Origin: Boseongicola sp. SB0675_bin_26
GTDB lineage: Bacteria > Pseudomonadota > Alphaproteobacteria > Rhodobacterales > Rhodobacteraceae
Reading direction: 5' to 3'
Assembly: GCA_009843725.1 (NCBI GenBank)
Contig: VYCX01000222.1
Span: 1-14,336 of the forward strand
Length of the DNA: 14,336 nucleotides
Below the pieces are notes generated by a model, which saw nothing but the letters and a program-made list of their open reading frames with translations, was not told where the DNA came from and did not search any database. The position numbers and the translations under genes are program-made. Below are positions 7,311 to 11,452 of the stretch, piece by piece; position 1 is the stretch's first letter; the number at the start of each line of letters is the position of its first letter.

Positions 7311-7895
7311 ATGATCGAAACCTTCGCCAACAAGCAGCCGAAGGCTCTTTGGGAAACGGGCAAGTCGAAGATCGACACGAGACTCCATTCTCGAATTCTG
7401 CGTGGGCTGGATGCCTTGGACGCGGCAACGCGTCCGGAGGACATGAACCTCCCCGGATTCGGCTTTCATGCGCTTAGGGGCCACAAGCCAACACGGTACA
7501 CGGTCCACGTGAATGGCCCTTGGTGCGTTACCTTCGAGTTTGGGGATGGGAATGCCTACGCGCTCGACCTTGAGCAATGCCACCAGGAGACAAACATGAG
7601 CCGTGACGCGGATCGCTGCCCTACACATCCCGGCGAGCTTCTTCGAAAAGACGTGCTTCCGGCAGTCAAGAAATCGAAAACCGAAGTGTCGCGCTTGCTC
7701 GGCATATCGCGACAGCATCTCCATGACATTCTAGCTGAACGAAAGCCCGTTAGCCCGGAGGTTGCTGTGCGCCTTGGCAAGCTCTTCGGGAACAGAGCCA
7801 GTTTGTGGATCAGGATGCAAGGTGCGTATGACGAATGGCAGGTTTCCAAGAAGGTTGACGTGTCGGGCATTCCGACCTTGCACGCCGCCGAGTGA
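7311..7895 (+). CDS. higBA: Fused HigB-like toxin and HigA antitoxin in a single ORF
   Basis: A 194-residue protein with two parts usually made separately. Residues 1-91 match HigB (RelE/ParE fold): LDALDAATRPEDMNLPGFGFHALRG cut at the strand turns, then VNGPWCVTFEFGDGNAYALDLEQCH. Residues 96-194 match HigA: CPTHPGELLRKDVLP, the helix-turn-helix VSRLLGISRQHLHDIL, and VRLGKLFGNRASLW. The linker QETN is encoded by CAG GAG ACA AAC, which contains the ribosome site (AGGAGA) expected for a separate HigA starting at the ATG at 7596. One base (C7584 to T) would restore a TAG stop after His91. The toxin half lacks expected active-site residues: Arg of WRITF is Cys, and Tyr of DYH is Cys. It may therefore act only as a DNA-binding regulator or neutraliser. 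Confidence 0.85.
   Translation: MIETFANKQPKALWETGKSKIDTRLHSRILRGLDALDAATRPEDMNLPGFGFHALRGHKPTRYTVHVNGPWCVTFEFGDGNAYALDLEQCHQETNMSRDADRCPTHPGELLRKDVLPAVKKSKTEVSRLLGISRQHLHDILAERKPVSPEVAVRLGKLFGNRASLWIRMQGAYDEWQVSKKVDVSGIPTLHAAE
7585..7598 (+). promoter_or_regulatory. Internal ribosome site and start for free HigA inside the fusion
   Basis: AGGAGA (7585-7590) lies five bases before ATG 7596-7598, in frame with the fusion. This arrangement is that of an ordinary higBA operon and would allow free antitoxin (100 residues, 7596-7895) to be made alongside the fusion. Confidence 0.6.
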
Positions 7896-7970: not shown

Positions 7971-8002
7971 ATGGCTCCGGAAATGGCTCTCTGGCTTTCG
8001 TT
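7971..8002 (+). pseudogene. 5' part of a small membrane-protein gene split by the transposon
   Basis: ATG at 7971 (or 7965) opens a frame reading MAPEMALWLSF up to the transposon edge. When the element and one target copy are removed, it continues in frame into 11197-11452. The start has only a weak ribosome site. The fragment is recognised through the reconstructed junction, not by family similarity. Confidence 0.5.
7995..8002. repeat. Target site duplication, left copy (CTTTCGTT)
   Basis: Eight bases directly outside the left inverted repeat, identical to 11189-11196 directly outside the right one. Eight bases is the usual duplication size for IS1595-family insertions. Confidence 0.93.
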
Positions 8003-8028
8003 GGAGATTATCCATTATACTTGACAAA
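8003..8028 (+). repeat. Left terminal inverted repeat of the transposon
   Basis: It begins GGAGATTATCCA and ends CTTGACAAA. It matches the reverse complement of 11163-11188 at 21 of 26 positions. The repeat contains a consensus TTGACA -35 box that serves the transposase promoter. Confidence 0.92.
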
Positions 8029-8049
8029 CTTTCCAGCCATGCCTATATC
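8021..8049 (+). promoter_or_regulatory. Transposase promoter, -35 box inside the inverted repeat
   Basis: TTGACA (8021-8026), a 17-base spacer and TATATC (8044-8049): close to the sigma-70 consensus. Transposase bound at the repeat would cover the -35 box, which suggests autoregulation. Confidence 0.7.
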
Positions 8050-8075
8050 CCTTTCACAAGCGAAGGAGGATGGAC

Positions 8076-9032
8076 ATGGCTGGAAAGACGCACCGAGACG
8101 GACTTACCCCGATTGATGTCATGCGGATGTTCCCGGACGACGCAGCGGCGACCAAGTGGTTCGAGGAATGCCTTTGGCCGGAGCAGCGCCATTGCGGCAA
8201 GTGCGGGAGCCTGAAGACCCGCGAGGTTCCGAACGCCAAGCCCATGCCATACTGGTGCACGGACTGCCGCTCCTACTTCAGCGTCCGCACGGGCACGCCG
8301 CTTGCGCGCTCGAACGTCCCGATGCAGAAGTGGGCCATCGCGATATACCTGTGCCTGACGAGCCTCAAGAGCGTGTCGAGCGTCAAGCTCGGGCGCGACA
8401 TCGGCGTGAAGCAGTCAACGGCATGGTTCATGCTGCACAGGATCAGGGAGGCATGGGCGACGGGCGAGGCCGGACCCTTCGACGGCCCGGTGGAGGTTGA
8501 CGAGACCTACTTCGGCGGCAAGCGCCGCAACAAGTCGAACGCCGAGCGCAAGGAGCTTGCGGGCCGGGGACCCGTGGACATGACCGCCGTCGTGGGCGCG
8601 AAGTGCAGGGCGTCCAACAAGGTCAGCGCCAAGGTCGTGCGCTCGACCGACAGGGGCACGCTGCAAGGGTTCGTGGCCGACGTGACGGACCCGGAGACGA
8701 AGGTGCATACCGACGACGCAGCCGCCTGTATCGGCATTCCCAACCCGCACGGGACCGTCAGGCACAGCGTCTCGGAATACGTCAGGGGCAAGGTGCACAC
8801 GAACGGGATCGAGAGCTTCTGGTCGATGCTCAAGCGGGCGCACAAGGGGACCTTCCACAAGATCAGCCCCAAGCACCTGCAACGCTACTTGTCCGAGTTC
8901 TCCGGGAAGCACAACGTGCGGGAGTCAGACACCATCGACCAGATGCGCGACACCGTTGCCCGCCTCGTCGGCAGGAACCTGCTCTACCGCGATCTCGTCT
9001 CCGACAACGGCCTCTCCAACGGGGCGCGATAG
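8076..9032 (+). CDS. IS1595-family (ISXO2-like) DDE transposase
   Basis: 318 residues. The N-terminal zinc ribbon has Cys40-x2-Cys43 (CGKC) and Cys61-x2-Cys64 (CTDC). A helix-turn-helix-like segment follows (LTSLKSVSSVKLGRDIGVKQ). The DDE domain has VEVDETYFGG (Asp142), HTDDAA (Asp213) and NGIESFWSMLKR (Glu246), then the FHKISPKHLQRYLSEF segment seen in this family. It catalyses cut-and-paste-type strand transfer at the inverted repeats. The ribosome site AAGGAGG (8063-8069) touches an ATG at 8070, so the ATG at 8076, six bases downstream of it, is the better start. All catalytic and zinc residues are present and there is no frameshift, so it is likely active. Confidence 0.93.
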   Translation: MAGKTHRDGLTPIDVMRMFPDDAAATKWFEECLWPEQRHCGKCGSLKTREVPNAKPMPYWCTDCRSYFSVRTGTPLARSNVPMQKWAIAIYLCLTSLKSVSSVKLGRDIGVKQSTAWFMLHRIREAWATGEAGPFDGPVEVDETYFGGKRRNKSNAERKELAGRGPVDMTAVVGAKCRASNKVSAKVVRSTDRGTLQGFVADVTDPETKVHTDDAAACIGIPNPHGTVRHSVSEYVRGKVHTNGIESFWSMLKRAHKGTFHKISPKHLQRYLSEFSGKHNVRESDTIDQMRDTVARLVGRNLLYRDLVSDNGLSNGAR

Positions 9033-9041
9033 GTGCGGCTG

Positions 9042-9098
9042 CCTCAGCAGGGCACGGGCCAACGCCCTTGGCGTTGCGCCCCTGAGGTCCCGCTGAGG
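9042..9098. terminator. Long nested hairpin between the convergent transposase and lipoprotein genes
   Basis: An outer stem CCTCAGC/GCTGAGG encloses an inner stem GGGC-CAACGCC / GGCGTTG-C-GCCC around a CTT loop (9056-9081). It begins 10 bases after the transposase stop. No U-run follows, but the position between convergent genes suggests a two-way transcription stop or RNA stabiliser. Confidence 0.5.
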
Positions 9099-9223
9099 GT
9101 CAAGGACCGGTATGCCTCGTGTCATCGGCTTGCCTCCTTCCTTCCTGTTTCACAAAACGCATGAACCTCGCCGGACGATCCCTGCCAGTTGTGGAGCTTG
9201 GCCATGGCGTCACCTTAGGACGA

Positions 9224-10624
9224 TCAGTCCTTCCCCGCAACGAACGATCCTGCATACTCGTTGTCCCGGTCGCTCACGACGCCGCCGACCCATCCTGACG
9301 GATCGCCTGCATCGTCGGCATACCACTTCGCCTCGACGCTTTCGCCGGAGCATCCGCCGGACGTGCAGTCCATGTTGTAGGTGAAGTCCCCGAACCCGTC
9401 GGCAGGGAAACTGTGGTCATGCCACATGGCAACGCCGTCGTTGCTGGCGTAGTGGGCCTCGAAGTTGTCAACCCTGAGGTTCAGGTTCGGACGGTCCCCG
9501 AACGTGTATCGCAGGTTGGCGTCCGCACGGAGCAGGGCACCGAGATAGTTCTCGTTCATGTCCACGCCGAGGAAGTTGTCCTCGCCGCTCCATGTGGCGG
9601 AGGCTGTCAGCGAGACGCCCTCGGAGGGCTTCCCGCGAACCCACCCCGTGCCAGAGATTTCATCGACAAAGGACAGGTTGCCACCGTATGACCGCCCCGG
9701 AGCAGTCCATCCGTCAACCTCGAAGTGATGCTCGATCCATACGCCCCATCCGTTGATGGAGGAAGGGTCGCCGGACATGGAGACCGTGTAACGATCAACG
9801 TTGCTGTCGTTCCATGTCGCGTTCGGGACATGGCGGATGTCCTCCTGCGTCACGTAGTAGCGGGCGCGGCGCAGGACATTGGGGTCGAGGGTGTCATAAC
9901 TGATCACGCTGCCGGACCCGTAGGGCGCATGGCACCTGTCTTCCGGGCCGCATCCTTCAGTGATGCCGTTGGGGTTCACGTAATGGAACTGGTGGCCTGC
10001 CTCGTGGGACAGAACGTAGAACAGGTTTTGAGCAGCGGCCAATTGGGTCAGGTCGTTGCCGCTCCAAAGGCCGTCATAGACCTGCTCAACCCATGCATCA
10101 CTCAAGACGACTGCGTTGACCGCTTCATTGTAGCAGGCAATGGCATCGGAACCGTGACCGCAGTTGAGATTGCCGATCTCTCCGATCTGCAATTCCAATG
10201 CTCCGGGGTCGTAGTTCAGGTGCCGGGTCCATTGCAGGTAGGCCCTGTTCGCCAGAACCCAAAGAACGACCCCGGCGTCCTCAAGGCGCTGAACGGCATT
10301 GGGGTCGCGATCAAGTCCGGGTTCCAGACGATAGGCCAATGCCTCGGTGATCTCCGGGCGGGCGAAAGCCACGCCGCCCTGAGACGGTCGCTGCACCTGA
10401 AGCCCGTCCCTGCCATGCCGTGGCAAGTCGATCTGGGGATTTGCATACCAGCCCAAATCACTGTAGTTCCTCGCGCTGCTCCACTCGCCATGATGGACCT
10501 CGGACGACGCTGGCTGCATCGGCTCCTCAGGCATCGGGGGTCGGGGTGTCGTGCCGTTTTCGTCACTTCCTCCGCCGCAGGCGGAGATGGCAAGGATTGC
10601 CAATAACATCACTGATCTTTTCAT
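9224..10624 (-). CDS. Passenger lipoprotein: metzincin-like HEXXH domain plus C-terminal beta-barrel domain
   Basis: 466 residues from an ATG with a perfect AGGAGG eight bases upstream. The signal peptide MKRSVMLLAILAISAC has lipobox ISAC (Cys16), then a Gly- and Pro-rich linker, so the mature protein is membrane-anchored outside the cytoplasm. The middle domain has a zinc-protease motif HEAGH (207-211) and, downstream, SVISY followed by YYVTQEDIRHV. This resembles the Met-turn and C-terminal helix of matrixins, with Ile in place of Met. The typical third ligand (HExxHxxGxxH) is not evident. Cysteines 154/164, 225/231 and 420/425 could pair. The last about 130 residues (GTGWVRG ... WSGEDNFLGVD ... 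DNEYAGSFVAG) look like a small TbpB/HphA-type barrel. Proteolysis is inferred; the target is unknown. Confidence 0.75.
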   Translation of the reverse strand: MKRSVMLLAILAISACGGGSDENGTTPRPPMPEEPMQPASSEVHHGEWSSARNYSDLGWYANPQIDLPRHGRDGLQVQRPSQGGVAFARPEITEALAYRLEPGLDRDPNAVQRLEDAGVVLWVLANRAYLQWTRHLNYDPGALELQIGEIGNLNCGHGSDAIACYNEAVNAVVLSDAWVEQVYDGLWSGNDLTQLAAAQNLFYVLSHEAGHQFHYVNPNGITEGCGPEDRCHAPYGSGSVISYDTLDPNVLRRARYYVTQEDIRHVPNATWNDSNVDRYTVSMSGDPSSINGWGVWIEHHFEVDGWTAPGRSYGGNLSFVDEISGTGWVRGKPSEGVSLTASATWSGEDNFLGVDMNENYLGALLRADANLRYTFGDRPNLNLRVDNFEAHYASNDGVAMWHDHSFPADGFGDFTYNMDCTSGGCSGESVEAKWYADDAGDPSGWVGGVVSDRDNEYAGSFVAGKD

Positions 10625-10672
10625 GTCGGAAACCTCCTGTATTGCATTACTCTCTGAACCTGTTGGAAGCGT

Positions 10673-10689
10673 CCCGGCGGGTTGCCGGG
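10673..10689. repeat. Hairpin in the lipoprotein leader (CCCGGC-GGGTT-GCCGGG)
   Basis: A perfect 6-base GC stem with a 5-base loop. On the minus strand it lies between the large branched structure and the lipoprotein ribosome site, so it would be in the leader of the lipoprotein message. Confidence 0.6.
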
Positions 10690-10694
10690 CCGGT

Positions 10695-10774
10695 CGCCAA
10701 ACAATCTCCAAGGTAGTGATGAAGTTCCTGCACGAAGCAGGCGGCCCGGCATGGGCCACCTTGGAGGTTTGGCG
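10695..10774. repeat. Three-stem branched inverted-repeat structure between the passenger genes
   Basis: The outer arms pair over 17 bases: CGCCAAAC with GTTTGGCG, and CTCCAAGGT with ACCTTGGAG, interrupted only by AAT at 10703-10705. Inside are two perfect 5-base hairpins: CCTGC-ACGAA-GCAGG (10727-10741) and GGCCC-GGCAT-GGGCC (10743-10757). They are separated from the first outer arm by 12 unpaired bases and abut the second arm directly. The layout is that of a multi-branch RNA, or of a folded single-stranded DNA. It begins 11 bases past the membrane-protein stop, so it sits in the spacer before the lipoprotein gene. Confidence 0.7.
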
Positions 10775-10785
10775 ATGAAGGGAGG

Positions 10786-11136
10786 TTACTCGCTGTCGTC
10801 GAGAGGCGCAAGAAGTCCGTTATTCTCAAGCCACTTGATCAGGTCGCGGGACACGTTCTCGTCGGTCCTGAGGCGCAGCTTGCCGTATGCGGTCCCGATC
10901 TCCCAGACCCTTTCCTCGGGGTGGAACACGGCAACCTGTCCACCCTTGTTCGCAGGCTTGACCTTGGAAAACTCCTTCAGGATGTCCTTGCGGAGGTTCT
11001 TCAGCCTTCGCGTGGTTCCCCAATTGTAACATATGACGAACCCGATCACTCCGGCCACTATGGAGCTTATCATCATCTGCCTGAACTCTCTTGTGCTGAA
11101 GCCAAGGAGGTCAACTGTTGCATCGAACCATGCCAT
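10786..11136 (-). CDS. Passenger small membrane protein of unknown function
   Basis: 116 residues from the ATG at 11136; a TTG at 11148 could add four more. One clear membrane helix lies at about residues 21-39 (MMISSIVAGVIGFVICYNW). It is followed by a basic stretch (TTRRLKNLRKDILKEF), which predicts a cytoplasmic C-terminus of about 75 residues. That tail has a compact mixed pattern (VAVFHPEERVWEIG ... DLIKWLENNGLL). I recognise no family. It lies next to the right inverted repeat, whose inward TTGACA could help drive it, and precedes the lipoprotein on the same strand. No good ribosome site is visible. It may act with the lipoprotein or in transposon biology. Confidence 0.65.
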   Translation of the reverse strand: MAWFDATVDLLGFSTREFRQMMISSIVAGVIGFVICYNWGTTRRLKNLRKDILKEFSKVKPANKGGQVAVFHPEERVWEIGTAYGKLRLRTDENVSRDLIKWLENNGLLAPLDDSE

Positions 11137-11162
11137 GCGCCGGTCCAAGCGCGTTCCGTGGC

Positions 11163-11188
11163 TGTGTCAAGCATTGTGGATAATCCCC
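11163..11188 (-). repeat. Right terminal inverted repeat of the transposon
   Basis: Read inward on the minus strand it begins GGGGATTATCCA and ends CTTGACACA, matching the left repeat at 21 of 26 positions. It also carries an inward TTGACA box (11170-11165). No good -10 box lies 17 bases further in, where TGGACC is found. Confidence 0.92.
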
Positions 11189-11196
11189 CTTTCGTT
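11189..11196. repeat. Target site duplication, right copy (CTTTCGTT)
   Basis: Identical to 7995-8002. Together the two copies fix both boundaries of the transposon to the base. Confidence 0.93.
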
Positions 11197-11452
11197 CTGG
11201 CCCATCTACTTGGCGATACTCCTCATCGTCGTCGGCGCGACCGTCGTCGCGGTGACTGCATGCGTCCGGCCGGCGCATTTGCTGGACCAGGCGATGGACG
11301 GACGGCGCGTCCTCCGCATACCTGTCATGGCGCCATTCCTGGCCACGCCGACCGCGTCGGCGCTGGTCCGGAAGACCATGCTCACGGACACGATGAATGT
11401 TGTTCTTGCACATCTCCGGAAATCCCTGCCGGCGACTCCCGTCGAGTGGTAG
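11189..11452 (+). pseudogene. 3' part of the small membrane-protein gene split by the transposon
   Basis: The frame continues from the 5' piece as LSFWPIYLAILLIVVGATV, a membrane helix, then a tail ending LRKSLPATPVEW and TAG. Removing the transposon gives a protein of about 95 residues with one N-terminal helix. Most codons end in G or C, as in the neighbouring real genes, which supports former coding. No family recognised. Confidence 0.5.

Follow-up and report, generated by a model that had tools for sequence, protein, structure and literature searches.

An IS1595-type transposon in a draft Boseongicola genome with a predicted surface lipoprotein among its passengers

Boundaries and empty sites of the element

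We have analyzed a stretch of 14,336 nucleotides, hereafter the window, that corresponds to contig C110 (VYCX01000222.1) of the draft genome of Boseongicola sp. SB0675_bin_26, which consists of 574 contigs. Between positions 8003 and 11188 lies an element of 3186 bp that contains the gene of a transposase and, on the opposite strand, two passenger genes (Table 1). The first-pass annotation of this DNA had proposed a complete transposon of the IS1595 type with a two-gene cargo and bounds exact to the base. Our analysis confirms this description, which is seen in the ends of the element, in the duplication of its target and in the empty sites of related genomes.

Table 1. Coordinates of the features found in the element and at its target
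Feature	Position	Strand	Remarks
Left copy of the target duplication	7995..8002	.	CTTTCGTT, 8 bp; single at the empty sites
Left terminal inverted repeat	8003..8028	+	26 bp, GGAGATTATCCATTATACTTGACAAA; 21/26 against the right end
Transposase promoter (probable)	8021..8049	+	TTGACA 8021-8026 within the repeat, 17 nt, TATATC 8044-8049; found by eye
IS1595-family (ISXO2-like) transposase	8070..9032	+	Pfam PF12762, NCBIfam NF033547; ATG 8076 is the likely true start
Passenger 1, lipoprotein	9224..10624	-	466 aa; lipobox, C16; open frame; AGGAGG 10633-10638 upstream
Inserted metalloprotease-like domain of passenger 1	9800..10348	-	residues ~93-275; HEAGH
Passenger 2	10786..11133	-	115 aa; open frame; one hydrophobic stretch near the N-terminus (hydropathy)
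Right terminal inverted repeat	11163..11188	-	26 bp; 21/26 against the left end
Right copy of the target duplication	11189..11196	.	CTTTCGTT, perfect match to the left copy
Right part of the target, probably a sugar-ABC-transporter permease remnant	11197..11452	+	plasmid matches, joined frame; the left part stops at 8002

The inverted repeats and the duplication that delimit the element are the best such pair around the transposase. Terminal inverted repeats of IS1595 elements start with GG, and so do both ends here (GGAGATTATCC and GGGGATTATCC). A review passage gives the same start for the ends of the Merlin elements, which are related to IS1595, and a target duplication of 8 bp for the IS1595 family. 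The transposase itself was recognized by the Pfam domain DDE_Tnp_IS1595 (E 8e-34; 117 bits, cut-off 27) and by the NCBIfam model for IS1595 (169 bits, cut-off 75). All IS1595 groups with the exception of IS1016 have an N-terminal zinc ribbon according to the review passage; the corresponding Pfam score at the N-terminus of this transposase was 17.9 bits against a cut-off of 25.4, and the four cysteines C42, C45, C63 and C66 are invariant in the six copies of the same genome. Also invariant in these copies are D144, D215/D216 and E248. We take D144, D215 or D216, and E248 to be the DDE triad. A ribosome-binding motif, AGGAGG (8064-8069), sits six bases before ATG 8076. TTGACA is present in both terminal repeats, and the left one probably serves also as a portion of the promoter of the transposase, since it is followed in the window by TATATC at 17 nt and a sister element (L013) has the matching layout TTGACT-17-TATATT. 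The consensus promoter scan omits this candidate because it accepts a second hexamer only when the last base is T.

Another reading of the locus would be a simple insertion sequence (IS) of ~1.1 kb beside host genes, with a right repeat found at a distance by chance. It could draw on the imperfection of the repeats (21/26) and on the existence of a bare relative of 1179 bp (L141, from a viral contig). Against it, the perfect duplication of 8 bp falls exactly at the ends, and the repeat search of the window gave no second right end beside the transposase gene. Besides, when the same kind of search was run on 68 transposase loci (the window, seven other contigs of this genome and 60 loci of the family), with one mismatch tolerated in the duplication, it delimited an element at 47 of them, and at none of the 199 chimaeras obtained by exchanging downstream halves between these loci. 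The reading is refuted by the empty sites, which lack the entire 3186 bp, and we give it practically no probability.

These empty sites, which the first-pass annotation had proposed to look for in related strains, were found in two genomes of the same genus, G397 and G398 (loci L126 and L127), where the flanks are joined with one copy of the target (CTTTCGCT and ATTTCGAT, respectively) and without the passengers. The identity to the window over the 598 nt spanning each junction was 95% in G397 and 91% in G398, with 94 of the 598 nt falling left of the junction. Further to the left, G398 resumes the match to the window past ~580 extra bases (~3093-3677 of L127, G398:C131), located between a higBA-like gene and the target and missing from the window; in G397 the further-left flank was unmatched within the stretch examined. 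The joined flanks form one continuous open frame across the insertion site, and the plasmid matches of the flank are annotated as sugar ABC transporter permease. In another genus mate (L129) the match to the left flank lies ~110 bases from the permease match. The element was probably inserted, judging from these sequences, into what is left of a gene for a sugar-transporter permease, with a higBA-like frame upstream of it. This frame (7311-7895, ~100 bp left of the insertion) joins a HigB-like toxin and a HigA-like antitoxin (PF05015, TIGR02607). Two other candidates were dropped: a plasmid context, as the 20 listed of 22 distant blastn matches to plasmids cover the flanks only, and an RNA element, with no Rfam match at the gathering threshold in the window.

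The two passenger proteins

Passenger 1 starts with a lipobox signal peptide (MKRSVMLLAILAISAC, detected by a pattern screen) and has a Gly-rich linker. Its predicted structure (pLDDT 90.8) has a Slam-type handle and eight-stranded barrel lobe, residues ~38-92 and 276-466, split by a domain for which a matrixin-like zincin fold with the HExxH motif is predicted. Among the PDB matches listed for the lobe the identity was 6-19%. We found 96 homologues among 7997 candidates scored; H207, E208 and H211 of the HEAGH motif are invariant in 63 aligned sequences. H232, a candidate for the third zinc ligand, is invariant as well. At the position of the Met-turn the window protein reads SVISYD, with Ile, and several homologues SVMSYD. 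One homologue (P0092) matched TbpB_B_D above the cut-off, in an N-terminal stretch absent from the window protein. A surface role, already suggested in the first-pass annotation, is supported by the lipobox, by the predicted Slam-type lobe and by the Slam genes of the genus: PF04575 (Slam) was over the cut-off in seven of the eight genus genomes, namely this one, with a partial match, and six of its seven mates, and in none of 14 controls.

About passenger 2 there is much less to say. Its only protein-database entry is marked as encoded by this same window, it had no match in the loci examined, and BLASTP gave no alignment with the similarly placed protein of locus L190. Neither passenger was matched by PADLOC, or by Pfam above the cut-off. 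The idea of the two passengers as a conserved pair was dropped: for passenger 2 no relative was found, and relatives of the lipoprotein lie at five loci taken from named genomes (L019-L023) with no IS1595 transposase in the flank examined, which means that the passenger 1 gene family is not specific to the element. One of these loci, L020, belongs to G395, the sole genome among the seven genus mates with a full-length match to the lipoprotein.

We consider it likely that the element is a transporter IS of the IS1595 family carrying a predicted surface lipoprotein that bears a zinc protease, with a probable benefit to the host; the display, the proteolysis and the benefit are what we infer. The transposase, expressed from the promoter with its -35 box in the left repeat, would bind the 26-bp repeat at each end, and all 3186 bp would integrate as one unit at an 8-bp staggered cut, as expected from the family. 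After export and lipidation at C16, the lipoprotein would travel to the outer membrane and be brought to the surface by a Slam protein, which the genomes of the genus encode. There, a lobe similar to those of TbpB and fHbp would present the inserted matrixin-like zinc protease. By cleaving or binding an outside protein, or by altering a surface used by phages, it could pay off to the host, and this would help the element to persist. Other elements of the chassis may owe their persistence to restriction-modification or toxin-like cargo instead.

Several observations weigh against this interpretation. The window protein has an Ile at the Met-turn position and its third zinc ligand is not established. 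With Foldseek alone, the best protease match to the inserted domain had an E of 0.17; the TM-scores normalised to the whole model were 0.24 or lower among the matches listed, and VIA-align, which only re-orders the list of Foldseek, is not itself a search. Pfam gave no match to the window lipoprotein even at E 10, TbpB_B_D included, and the one NCBIfam match, to a TonB receptor, was far below the cut-off. The PDB profile search with the lipoprotein family retrieved a snake-venom metalloproteinase (E 0.27) and otherwise unrelated chains. To this should be added that the Slam match of the own genome is partial, that the five loci with relatives show no IS1595 transposase in the flank, and that a single copy of the element was found.

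Cargo of related elements

A profile of the six transposases of this genome matched 58 of the 394 genomes of the family, the own included, with E values of 1e-40 or better. At most five candidates were scored per genome, and at least 92 places were listed, five of them in the own genome; 60 of the 87 others were taken, omitting fragments, frames containing stops and low scorers. The 47 bounded elements of the own genome and the family, the window among them, measure between 1684 and 6334 bp (median 2690 bp). None is smaller than 1300 bp or bare, i.e. all have cargo. Two are doubtful, L110 for containing a second IS1595 domain and L099 for a mismatch in the duplication and ends that do not start with GG. 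Bounded elements were found also at 29 of 51 loci on viral contigs, where L141 is the only bare one, and at 7 of 20 loci of the genus. L185 and L054 represent one and the same insertion, and L188 covers the region of L016.

These numbers modify what had been first proposed. The size of about three times the usual stands by comparison with a simple IS1595 element and not for the lineage itself, given its median length. Both conditions that the first-pass annotation had set for its own refutation spoke for it: the empty sites lack the passengers, and copies with ends next to the transposase and free of cargo were absent among the 47 elements. As to the cargo being an undescribed passenger class, the class has support because lipoproteins similar to TbpB are cargo of four further IS1595 elements, described below, while carrying cargo as such is already established for IS1595 and was the rule in our survey.

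Gene calls inside the elements were mechanical, longest frame first, and may be wrong. The Pfam scan covered at least one cargo frame, not every frame, in 44 of the 47 elements (none in L070, L103 and L104). It found DNA methylases or restriction nucleases in nine of the 47 (L015, L054, L056, L057, L058, L059, L063, L081 and L099) and PIN, Panacea or RelA/SpoT domains in five (L079, L083, L087, just below the cut-off, L088 and L090). In this genome, L015 codes for a C5 methylase and a type II nuclease and L016 for a D12 methylase and a type II nuclease; an element of a genus mate (L198) has a D12 methylase with a NotI-type nuclease. DUF3800 appeared as cargo in six bounded elements (L068, L085, L086, L091, L097 and L098), and its function might be sought in element persistence.

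Some other traits of these elements deserve mention. In L067, L068, L069, L070, L072 and L073, of 2.4-3.0 kb and from six genera, a gene for 313-347 aa follows right after the transposase with an overlap of 8 nt. Of the four such frames covered by the Pfam scan, those of L068, L072 and L073 matched P63C and that of L067 matched nothing. This P63C-type gene may belong to the transposition module. The element of L063 (G014:C33) has frames at both sides of the transposase, unlike most elements. The cargo frames of L187 (G397:C79; 4095 bp) include one for a protein with a membrane segment and three for small proteins that begin like signal peptides; the three of these four covered by the Pfam scan had no match. 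Finally, L016 (G000:C106), L188 (G398:C39) and L189 (G397:C29) are 99.8% identical over ~8.7-8.9 kb, whereas the flanks of the window are 91-95% identical in the same genomes; this indicates either a recent transfer of a restriction-carrying IS1595 region or misbinning.

Lipoproteins similar to TbpB were found in other elements. L061 (4110 bp) and L062 (3236 bp), both bounded and in one genome of another genus, carry lipoproteins 56% identical, accompanied by an outer-membrane barrel in L061 and by a second lipoprotein in L062. Their score for the TbpB barrel was 21-23 bits against a Pfam cut-off of 26; the comparison with the C-terminus of the window protein gave a probability of 57% and an E of 1e-4 for one comparison, and the PDB profile search gave nothing for the pair. 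A decayed element of the own genome (L018), with a truncated transposase and one end left, has another TbpB-like lipoprotein (23.7 bits, below the cut-off). In a genus mate (L195) a transposase is followed by a lipoprotein at the contig end; over its last 47 residues this protein shares 79% identity with the lipoprotein of L018. Near the TbpB-like lipoproteins of these last two, small proteins (L018:1492-1812 and L195:3323-3661) share 31% identity over 77 residues (E 4e-6); by eye they look GIY-YIG-like, and neither had a Pfam match.

It is possible, and in our estimate somewhat improbable, that the passengers are bystanders, i.e. that a lipoprotein gene already resident there and a small gene unrelated to it came by chance to lie between IS1595 ends, neither being selected for a function in the element. 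Such an accident would fit the five loci where relatives of the lipoprotein lie outside IS1595 elements, and the small protein, for which no relative was found. Only four of the 83 bounded elements passed the lipobox screen (the window, L061, L062 and L063), and the match of L063 is a 100-aa frame that is probably a signal peptide only. A profile of the L061 and L062 lipoproteins, for which no more than six candidates were scored in each genome, gave 25 matches in five of the 394 genomes. Three of these matches were inside IS1595 elements, two being the queries, and the other 22 had no IS1595 transposase in the stretches examined (for G314:C100, a short locus only). Since only one of the 23 non-query matches is inside an element, we claim no enrichment of such lipoproteins in IS1595 elements. 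On the other hand, the window gene has its frame, lipobox, ribosome site and HExxH all intact, and in the five elements with TbpB-like lipoproteins (the window, L061, L062, L018 and L195) the gene is always located downstream of the transposase gene, in the opposite orientation. In a tree of 81 transposases these five elements need four label changes, at least two of them forced by the starred branches.

The same tree bears on the exchange of cargo. When labels were shuffled, the mean for the lipoproteins was 4.5 changes, and 218 of 500 shuffles were as low as the real four; restriction cargo also needed four changes (212 of 500 as low), and 62 of the 81 rows bear neither label. As the counts are near the shuffled ones, the labels have no detectable tie to the transposase lineage, as expected if cargo is exchanged. 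We offer, tentatively, a wider picture in which the IS1595 chassis of Rhodobacterales could be an interchangeable shuttle for cassettes swapped between transposase lineages. Some cassettes would perhaps act by killing or addiction (restriction-modification, PIN, Panacea, RelA/SpoT), and others might change the surface (Slam-type lipoproteins, one of them with the matrixin-like protease), the latter forming a mobile pool of surface proteins with effects on hosts, neighbours or phage.

Interpretation and comparison with known systems

The restriction-modification (9/47) and toxin-like (5/47) genes of sister elements, together with the predicted surface location, could also point to an anti-phage or exclusion role of the lipoprotein, which would be carried for the protection against phage that it gives to host and element, either as a surface protease or by masking a receptor. 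We regard this as unlikely: PADLOC recognized neither passenger, and the Slam-type lobes known so far function in the capture of nutrients and in immune evasion, according to excerpts of the review of Slam-type lipoproteins (PMC7857515). The reading that we prefer is still the transporter IS with a probable benefit to the host through its predicted surface protease.

As far as the searches listed here show, three aspects are new: the predicted zinc protease built into a Slam-type lobe, the location of its gene in an IS1595 element for which empty sites exist, and the presence of restriction, toxin-like and surface cargo all on one small chassis. Elements of the size of an IS are generally regarded as selfish DNA or as carriers of resistance. 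The present lineage, of 2-6 kb, has among its cargo predicted two-gene restriction systems and a predicted surface protein of a new type, with a protease set within the scaffold used by surface antigens of Neisseria. Should such surface cassettes prove functional, elements as small as an IS could move outer-surface traits between marine Rhodobacterales, helping to explain the diversification of their surfaces.

Passenger 1 shares with TbpB, LbpB, fHbp, NHBA, HpuA and HphA the predicted handle-and-barrel lobe, the lipobox with the Gly-rich linker and the presence of Slam in the genus. It differs from the Slam-dependent lipoproteins by the inserted metalloprotease-like domain and by being transposon-borne, its dependence on Slam being predicted only. 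The canonical metzincin motif is HExxHxxGxxH; in contrast to matrixins and karilysin-like metzincins, the full motif is not read in the window protein, the third ligand is uncertain and the domain is nested in another.

Transporter IS of the IS1595 family were reportedly described by Siguier, Gagnevin and Chandler in 2009, with ISNha5 cited as an example. Excerpts of two publications (PMC11891212, PMC9330008) likewise present IS1595 transporter IS with passenger genes, and in the review passage the passenger named for IS1595 is a transcription regulator (ISNha5), methyltransferases and resistance genes being given for other families. The window element has in common with these, as they appear in the excerpts, the IS1595 transposase, the 8-bp duplication and the passengers between the ends, and is set apart by the passengers themselves, of which one is predicted to be a surface lipoprotein with a protease and the other is an orphan membrane protein. 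Among the titles and abstract beginnings listed, a literature search found no IS1595 element with restriction-modification or surface-lipoprotein cargo within its ends; in an excerpt of PMC10214660 a type I restriction locus lies beside an IS1595 copy, not inside.

The closest parallel in terms of cargo is provided by the Tn7-like transposons, with their defence-rich cargo (excerpts of PMC8649781). The word lipoprotein has no occurrence in the main text of that paper. Both kinds of element have cargo rich in restriction-modification and toxin genes, as far as the excerpts go, but the lineage of the window does so with one DDE transposase, a size of 2-6 kb and ends of the IS type.
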